From NCBI GenBank assembly GCA_028278405.1, contig JANQEK010000015.1, positions 124,001-188,000 on the forward strand: a DNA stretch of 64,000 bases. Direction: 5' to 3'. Numbering within the stretch: position 1 is the first letter of the stretch; every line of letters starts with the position of its first letter. A program made the position numbers and the translations under genes. This DNA is from Nitrospinaceae bacterium (GTDB taxonomy: Bacteria; Nitrospinota; Nitrospinia; Nitrospinales; Nitrospinaceae). Of this stretch, positions 26,589 through 37,164 are shown in pieces. Under the pieces are notes generated by a model, which was not told where the DNA came from, did no database searches, and was given only the letters and a program-made list of their open reading frames with translations.

Positions 26589-27818
26589 ATGGAAAATGAT
26601 GTCCTTGCTCTCGAACAGAGTGGAGACGTGTTGTTTATGATGTTGGGGGCAGCCATGGTGTTTGCCATGCATGGCGGTTTTGCCTTCCTTGAGGTGGGCA
26701 CGGTACGAAAAAAAAATCAAGTCAACGCTCTGGTGAAAATCATTGTCGACTTTGCGATCAGCACTGTTATTTATTTTACCATCGGCTATGCCGTTGCTTA
26801 CGGAATTTACTTTTATCAACCCGCAGGAATTCTTGCCGGCGATAAACAGGGTTACGAGCTGGTCCATTTCTTTTTTCTCCTGACATTTGCCGCGGCAATT
26901 CCCGCGATTATCTCCGGCGGTATTGCAGAGCGCGCTAAATTCTGGACACAGGCAGTGGCGGCCGCGATTTTCGTGGCGGTAGTCTATTCCTTCTTCGAGG
27001 GAATGGTCTGGGGACAAATCACATTTCTGGGCCAGAGTGGTTCCTGGCTGGAAAAAGTTGCCGGCGCTCCCTTTCACGATTTTGCCGGATCGGTCGTCGT
27101 GCATTCCATGGGCGGATGGCTGGCATTGGTTGGCGTTGTTGTTTTAGGACCCCGCATCGGTCGTTGGGATTCTCAGGGCAGAAGCCGTCCCATTCCGGTC
27201 AGTAACATCCCTTTCCTCGCGTTGGGCGCGTGGATGTTGTGCATCGGCTGGTTCGGATTCAATGTCATGTCTGCGGCTACCATCAAGGGTATCTCCGGAC
27301 TGGTCGCGATGAATTCCCTGTTTGCCATGGCGGGTGGAATTTTGTTTGCCCTCGTTGTATCCAGGAACGATCCGGGTTTTATCCATAACGGTGCATTGGC
27401 TGGACTGGTGGCTATCTGCGCCGGTTCCGACCAGGTGCATCCCATCGGTGCTTTTTTTATCGGCGGCATTGCGGGGATTATTTTTGTTTACGGATTTACC
27501 TGGGAGCAGGAGAAACTGAAGATCGACGACGTGCTCGGTGTTTGGCCTTTGCATGGAATCTGCGGAACCTGGGGTGGCATCGCTTGCGGTATTTTCGGAC
27601 TCAAGTCCTTCGGCGGGATAGGCGACGTCACCTTTATGGCGCAATTGATCGGTTCGTTGGCCGCTGTTGTTGTGGCTCTGGTGGCCGGGTTTGTTGTCTA
27701 CAAAGCTCTGGACAGCATGTTTGGCATCCGGCTGGAAAAAGACGATGAGTTACAGGGATCCGATTTAACCGTGCATAAAATCGATTCGACTCCGGAGGAA
27801 GGTACCACCCGATTTTAG
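26589..27818 (+). CDS. amt: Ammonium transporter Amt
   Basis: A 409-residue Amt/MEP-family channel with about eleven membrane helices. It carries FAMHGGFAFLEVGTVRKKN near the start, IPAIISGGIAERAKFW, the first pore histidine in HDFAGSVVVHSMGG, and the second in WPLHGICGTWGG, so both pore histidines are kept. The C-terminal tail has the family ELQGSDL element that contacts PII proteins. No glnK (PII) gene is adjacent, unlike in many bacteria. It passes ammonium from outside into the cytoplasm. A GGGGGA ribosome site precedes the ATG. It ends 23 bases from the convergent pentapeptide gene. Confidence 0.94.
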   Translation: MENDVLALEQSGDVLFMMLGAAMVFAMHGGFAFLEVGTVRKKNQVNALVKIIVDFAISTVIYFTIGYAVAYGIYFYQPAGILAGDKQGYELVHFFFLLTFAAAIPAIISGGIAERAKFWTQAVAAAIFVAVVYSFFEGMVWGQITFLGQSGSWLEKVAGAPFHDFAGSVVVHSMGGWLALVGVVVLGPRIGRWDSQGRSRPIPVSNIPFLALGAWMLCIGWFGFNVMSAATIKGISGLVAMNSLFAMAGGILFALVVSRNDPGFIHNGALAGLVAICAGSDQVHPIGAFFIGGIAGIIFVYGFTWEQEKLKIDDVLGVWPLHGICGTWGGIACGIFGLKSFGGIGDVTFMAQLIGSLAAVVVALVAGFVVYKALDSMFGIRLEKDDELQGSDLTVHKIDSTPEEGTTRF

Positions 27819-36126: not shown

Positions 36127-36381
36127 ATGGCTGAAATAAAATTTGAAAAGGCGATGAACCGTCTCGAACATATCGTCGAGGAATTGGAAAAGGGTGAGCT
36201 GGACATCGACAAATCCCTGGAGATTTTTGAGGAGGGGATCAAGATGTCACGCGTCTGTTCCAAAAAACTGAACGAAGCGGAACAGAAAATCGAAAAGCTC
36301 ACCAAAAATCAGAAGGGCGAGTTGGTCGCGGAACTGTTTCCCGTCGATGCGGACGAGGGTGATCCGGATGACGACGACTAA
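36127..36381 (+). CDS. xseB: Exodeoxyribonuclease VII small subunit
   Basis: An 84-residue protein with the full XseB motif: FEKAMNRLEHIVEELEKGEL, then DIDKSLEIFEEGIKMSRVCSKKL and NEAEQKIEKL. The C-terminus is acidic (DADEGDPDDDD). The ribosome site GGGAGCAGGAG precedes the ATG. Its last codons overlap the start of tlyA (ATG at 36368) by 14 bases, so the two are translationally coupled. Confidence 0.95.
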   Translation: MAEIKFEKAMNRLEHIVEELEKGELDIDKSLEIFEEGIKMSRVCSKKLNEAEQKIEKLTKNQKGELVAELFPVDADEGDPDDDD

Positions 36382-37164
36382 AAAAATTCGTCTCGACCAG
36401 TTGCTGGTAAAAAAAAACTGGTCACATCGCGGGAACGCGCTCAAAGCCTGATTTTGGCAGGCAAAGTTCGTATCGATGATGAACCGGCGGACAAACCGGG
36501 CCGCATGGTGGCGGAGAATGTCGATGTTTCGGTGTCGGAAGATCCTAATCCCTACGTCAGCCGCGGCGGCTTGAAGCTGGCGCAGGCGCTGAAGGAATTC
36601 GACATTGATCCGACAGGGAAATCAGCCGTAGATATCGGCGCATCCACCGGCGGATTCACCGATTGTTTGTTGCAGAAGGGAGCGGCCAAAGTATTCGCCG
36701 TCGATGTCGGGTACGGTCAGCTCGACTGGAAACTGCAATCGGACGATCGCGTGATGATGATCGATCGCACCAACGCCCGCCAGTTATCGTTGGACGAGGT
36801 GGGCGGTGATCCGCTGGACCTGGCCGTGATTGATGTCGCGTTTATTTCCCTCAAGCTGATCCTTCCTGCTGTGTTTAAAATATTAAAACCGGAGGGTCAG
36901 TGGATTGCGCTCGTCAAACCGCAGTTTGAAGTCGGCAAGGATGAAGTCGAGAACCAGGGCGTCATCACTGACCCCAACAAACATGTGAATGTGTTGCTGG
37001 AGTTAAAGAAATTTATCGAAGCGTCGGACTGGTGTCTGGCACAGGTCTGCCGTTCCCCCATCAAGGGACAAAAGGGCAACCAGGAGTATCTCATTCACGG
37101 TGTGCAACAGAGCACAGGAAGCGTGGTGGACGAAATCCGCATTCGGGAGACGGTGGGCGTATGA
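36368..37164 (+). CDS. tlyA: TlyA-family rRNA methyltransferase, interrupted by a -1 shift
   Basis: TlyA proteins are 2'-O-methyltransferases of 16S and 23S rRNA with an S4 domain and an FtsJ-like Rossmann fold. The S4 start (KKIRLDQLLVKK) is in the frame of the ATG at 36368, but that frame ends at a TGA at 36449-36451. From a run of nine A (36409-36417) the -1 frame continues as LVTSRERAQSLILAGKVRID and then the complete methyltransferase (SRGGLKLAQAL, SAVDIGASTGGFTDCLLQKG, LAVIDVAFISLKLILPAV, LVKPQFEVGKDEV). In the zero frame the site reads A-AAA-AAC, a recognised -1 slippery heptamer. So the gene is either expressed by frameshift or slippage, broken, or carries a one-base sequence error. 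The stop overlaps dcd. Confidence 0.8.

Follow-up and report, generated by a model that had tools for sequence, protein, structure and literature searches.

Slippage that gives access to a longer protein, and slippage on a run of nine A's as in Thermus dnaX, are already known. In bacterial transcripts the insertions due to slippage are for the most part of one nucleotide, in A/T runs, and in E. coli slippage climbs exponentially with the length of the run up to 9 nt (PMC5574713). Conserved runs of nine A's among homologs were proposed by Baranov et al. as a sign of functional transcriptional slippage (PMC1088944). The longer proteins of mxiE and spa13, type III secretion genes that are plasmid-borne in Shigella, require slippage of this kind on a homopolymer (PMC1088944, PMC5009743). 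The dnaX gene of Thermus thermophilus is a chromosomal housekeeping gene with a sense-strand run of nine A's, in which the genomic frame leads to the long product and slippage to the short one, both of them functional (PMC1088944, PMC5009743). In the transposases of IS elements, which belong to mobile elements, a conserved run of eight to ten A's connects two ORFs (PMC1088944). Two further systems rely on the ribosome. The programmed +1 frameshift of prfB, where an early in-frame stop makes the full-length product dependent on the shift, is present in many bacteria (PMC12421855); this ribosomal shift is stimulated by a Shine-Dalgarno element and is autoregulatory (PMC5009743). In yeast, the RNA methyltransferase domain of ABP140/TRM140, an enzyme that acts on tRNA, is accessed only via a +1 ribosomal shift (PMC5009743).

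We examined the tlyA gene in a 64,000-nucleotide stretch of DNA from a Nitrospinaceae bacterium (hereafter the window), where all features discussed lie on the forward strand. The upstream gene xseB (36127-36381), defined by its ORF and translation, presumably encodes the small subunit of exonuclease VII, judging by the protein and by its position after xseA. Its stop codon, TAA at 36379-36381, lies in the frame of the tlyA body, and the 3' end of xseB overlaps the start of tlyA, whose ATG at 36368 sits within the last codons of xseB. The zero frame of tlyA (36368-36451) comprises 27 codons, is closed by TGA at 36449-36451 and carries the N-terminal half of an S4 domain (IRLDQLLVKK). Its product, MTTTKKIRLDQLLVKKNWSHRGNALKA, opens with MTTTKK directly before this motif and continues with NWSH. 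The -1 frame (36418-37164) encodes, from CTG at 36418, LVTSRERAQSLILAGKVRIDDEPADKPG and continues to 37164 through the remainder of the S4 domain and an FtsJ-type 2'-O-methyltransferase domain. The S4 domain is split between the two frames at a run of nine A's at 36409-36417, followed by C at 36418 and located approximately 14 codons past the tlyA start. A sequence-only reading of the window had placed the frame split at this run and had called for a shift of -1; the run occupies exactly these positions, the frames on either side are as described, and the computed offset is -1, a value that recurs in 51 distinct sequences.

The -1 frame is readily identified as TlyA. It matches TIGR00478 (TlyA) with E=1.7e-70 and 236.9 bits against a cut-off of 185.8, carries FtsJ (PF01728) and the rest of S4 (PF01479), and matches the TlyA structure PDB 7s0s with E=5e-53. 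The score against the TlyA equivalog NF049952 was 183.8 bits against a cut-off of 250, for a query that consisted of the -1-frame part alone, lacking the N-terminus. Residues K53, D139 and K167 are conserved in 54 of 54 sequences and E223 in 53 of 54; we take these to be the catalytic K-D-K-E tetrad of the family. The gene is single, with no second tlyA match in the same genome. TlyA targets the decoding-centre bridge, at 16S h44 and 23S H69. In B. subtilis the enzyme methylates 23S and 16S rRNA, and its loss results in cold sensitivity and a defect in ribosome assembly (PMC12805891).

If full-length TlyA is made by slippage, the gene would resemble mxiE and spa13 in that the longer protein requires it, but it is a chromosomal rRNA methyltransferase gene in which the arrangement is order-wide. 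It shares with Thermus dnaX the sense-strand run of nine A's in a chromosomal housekeeping gene, whereas its genomic frame leads to a short peptide only; and it shares with the IS transposases a conserved run that connects two ORFs, although it encodes a cellular enzyme. As in prfB, an early in-frame stop makes the full-length protein dependent on a shift, but none of the ribosomal, +1, Shine-Dalgarno-stimulated or autoregulatory features of prfB are seen in tlyA. The parallel with ABP140/TRM140 is an RNA methyltransferase domain accessed only via a frameshift, differing in the direction of the shift, the eukaryotic host and the tRNA target. Among the titles and abstracts listed from the open-licence literature, none reported a slippage, frameshift or homopolymer site for tlyA or for Nitrospina/Nitrospinota, and the GeneTack survey names neither tlyA nor Nitrospina; we therefore found no report of the present case.

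Relatives for comparison were drawn from the genus, family, order and phylum (Nitrospinota), with duplicates removed. Within the order, 51 of 54 distinct sequences have the A-run at the identical codon and share the -1 offset, which answers the proposal in the sequence-only reading to compare the run in related genomes. These 51 sequences represent four families at 55-88% identity, were assembled independently, and three of the genomes are single contigs (L021, L069, L081). The run is nine A's long in 49 and ten in two (L030, L049), both of which retain the -1 offset. Among the sequences compared, such recurrence of run and offset is far beyond what chance would be expected to produce. In the other three members of the order the gene is in frame: L045 has the nine-A run in phase, a state that it may have reached via a single indel, and L084 and L086 are without the run. 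All 10 class outgroups are in frame and have no A-run. On a protein tree built from only the sequence 3' of the run, the frame state requires three changes, which we read here as one gain at the root of the order, with two subsequent losses. A point against a programmed site is that the out-of-frame state of tlyA is dispensable in some lineages, given the three order members that are back in frame. One further member of the order (G013; 96% complete, 5.3 Mb) yielded no tlyA match.

The pattern of substitution changes frame at the same place. Across 50 sequences, column variation is concentrated at zero-frame third positions up to the run and at -1-frame third positions after it, and the switch falls exactly at the A-run, indicating that selection acts on the fused protein. 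In the zero-frame codons for RLDQLLVKK the amino acids are kept among the 50 relatives and the third positions vary, so this upstream stretch is evidently translated and matters. The nine A's themselves show 0 substitutions at all positions on the tree, including 0 steps at each of the three wobble positions within the run (-9, -6 and -3). By comparison, all 245 of 245 downstream third positions have changed (median 14 steps), zero-frame wobbles just 5' of the run show 5 to 18 steps, and each of 73 comparable four- or six-fold columns shows at least 7 steps (median 16). The wobble at -9, which closes a Val or Leu codon, is A in 50 of 50 sequences, while in these tlyA genes A is the last base of only 11% of Val and 18% of Leu codons.

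We regard it as close to certain that this is a site of programmed recoding, whether by polymerase or by ribosome. Judging from the comparative sequence evidence, the site is probably one of RNA-polymerase slippage on the nine A's, conserved across the order and yielding full-length TlyA. By this mechanism, RNA polymerase would slip on the run and generate tlyA mRNAs of mixed length. Messages that had gained one A (or lost two) would direct synthesis of full-length TlyA with the junction LLV-KKK-LVTSR, and unslipped mRNA would give the short peptide only; insertion of one A is the direction needed to connect the two frames. The amount of TlyA made would then follow transcription of the xseA-xseB-tlyA gene cluster at a fixed fraction. 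The features found here are a run of nine or ten A's within the coding region, conservation of its length, conservation of the sequence in the shifted frame, and constraint that spans the entire run and extends beyond the slippery heptamer. A process that depends on run length would account for the nine invariant A's. The position, phase and conservation of the run, the selection on its two sides, the constraint on all nine A's and the lack of a second tlyA are direct results; that RNA polymerase, and not the ribosome, is the slipping agent is inferred, as are the efficiency and purpose of the slip.

The main competing explanation is programmed -1 ribosomal frameshifting, in which tandem tRNAs would step back on the heptamer A_AAA_AAC at 36412-36418 or on A_AAA_AAA at 36409-36415, which overlaps it. 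The former is correct in phase and direction, and an IS family in bacteria uses the same heptamer with no established stimulator (PMC4066793). The heptamer requires the last six A's only, yet the wobble at -9, which falls outside it, is invariant. A_AAA_AAA alone, which covers the first six or seven A's, would free positions -3 to -1, yet these are invariant as well and A_AAA_AAG is seen in none of the sequences. Either motif by itself thus leaves the nine invariant A's unexplained, although the two overlapping motifs could jointly constrain all nine positions. Stimulatory elements were also sought. A Shine-Dalgarno-like 4-mer at -27 to -10 was present in 0 of 50 sequences, synonymous change was not suppressed in the 150 bases 3' of the site, and alifold over the order returned no consensus fold downstream, the conserved stem-loop for which the sequence-only reading had proposed a search. 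Downstream folding is weak and non-conserved (mean z of -0.3 to -0.7, with control regions at approximately 0); these weak scores leave room for a possible lineage-specific stimulator. Seven sequences of the organism's own genus have a common fold (-9.9 and -22.6 kcal/mol). Nine invariant A's combined with no stimulator favour polymerase slippage over stimulated ribosomal frameshifting, and we consider the ribosomal explanation unlikely, though still a live rival given the two overlapping heptamers. The sequence-only reading, upheld in part, had put its weight on a perfect -1 slippery heptamer, and that choice is not well supported: A_AAA_AAC does occur in the zero frame, but conservation of the whole run, with no stimulator, fits better the polymerase slippage that had been mentioned second.

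Phase variation, in which replication slippage would alter the length of the DNA run and toggle tlyA on and off within a population, draws on the hypermutability of long homopolymers (PMC1088944). With such a run, the assemblies of some genomes should show the on-state, yet an in-phase length occurs in 0 of the 51 frameshifted consensus sequences and the two sites with ten A's are still at -1. TlyA is moreover an rRNA-modifying enzyme and not the product of a surface or contingency gene, and we consider this account highly improbable. A pseudogene, or a truncated TlyA made by internal initiation with no recoding, merits hardly any credence. A start codon is available in the -1 frame at TTG 36454-36456, the first ATG/GTG/TTG codon of that frame and the sole candidate near its 5' end, but its use would cost half of the S4 domain, and from the xseB stop up to the run the -1 frame holds no ATG/GTG/TTG codon. 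Internal initiation would also leave the nine A's unconserved; the RLDQLLVKK stretch is kept as protein while its third positions vary, and the catalytic residues are conserved throughout, which argues against decay.

Genome-wide, there are 46 runs of nine or ten A's, 20 of them within long uninterrupted ORFs, and the run in tlyA is the only one that breaks a frame, indicating that A-runs are not generally miscounted in the assembly. Eight other candidates for a frame break at such runs (L099, L107, L109, L115, L116, L119, L130, L135) were inspected, and we judged each to be the start of a gene, non-coding DNA or an ordinary ATGA overlap. A sequencing or assembly error has a negligible chance of being the cause, even though homopolymers are the usual place of errors and the Nitrospina gracilis genome paper explained the frameshifts seen in conserved essential genes as pyrosequencing errors (PMC3578206), since one state is shared by 51 distinct sequences from independent assemblies with three single-contig genomes, tlyA is alone in being broken, and error is unable to render nine positions invariant. 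Order-wide conservation disposes of both this possibility and a recent true mutation, each of which had been offered as an alternative on first reading. Some of the N. gracilis frameshifts ascribed to pyrosequencing may be genuine recoding sites.

Obligatory and conserved slippage in a single-copy cellular gene across a bacterial order is rare; apart from Thermus dnaX, the precedents cited are for the most part genes of secretion systems or mobile elements. Indels arise readily in a homopolymer and one of them is enough to restore the frame, yet 51 of 54 sequences are out of frame, which points to selection for slippage itself. This implies an advantage of being out of frame, the simplest reason being that slippage would set TlyA at a fraction of cluster transcription; its purpose would presumably be to keep TlyA output low or responsive. 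It is doubtful, though worth naming, that slip efficiency acts as a regulator in its own right, with TlyA synthesis sensing ribosome methylation in a feedback similar to that of prfB, or sensing nucleotide or energy state; feedback through ribosome methylation or a response of the slip to the nucleotide pool is speculation. If true, such regulation would link the modification of rRNA to the state of the cell in nitrite oxidisers, of which the host organisms are major marine representatives. The in-frame relatives, three sequences from two losses, provide the natural comparison. For annotators, the gene as it stands is likely to be recorded as a pseudogene, a truncated methyltransferase or a sequencing error, and a warning is warranted.

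Several individual sequences deserve mention. In L016 (G044), xseB has no stop and continues in frame into the tlyA body as an open frame of 318 codons, and a separate zero-frame tlyA start and the nine A's are retained. L090 (G024:C18:13959-14917) has an apparent second break in tlyA approximately 180 codons in, seen as two separate matches and due to mutation or assembly error. The tlyA sequences of three contigs labelled Alphaproteobacteria or Nitrospirota (L037, L032, L048) fall inside the Nitrospinota order, which suggests that the contigs were mis-binned or bear outdated names. Within the window itself, a run of nine A's at 26707-26717 lies in frame within an ORF of 415 codons and offers a useful control for both homopolymer accuracy and slippage.
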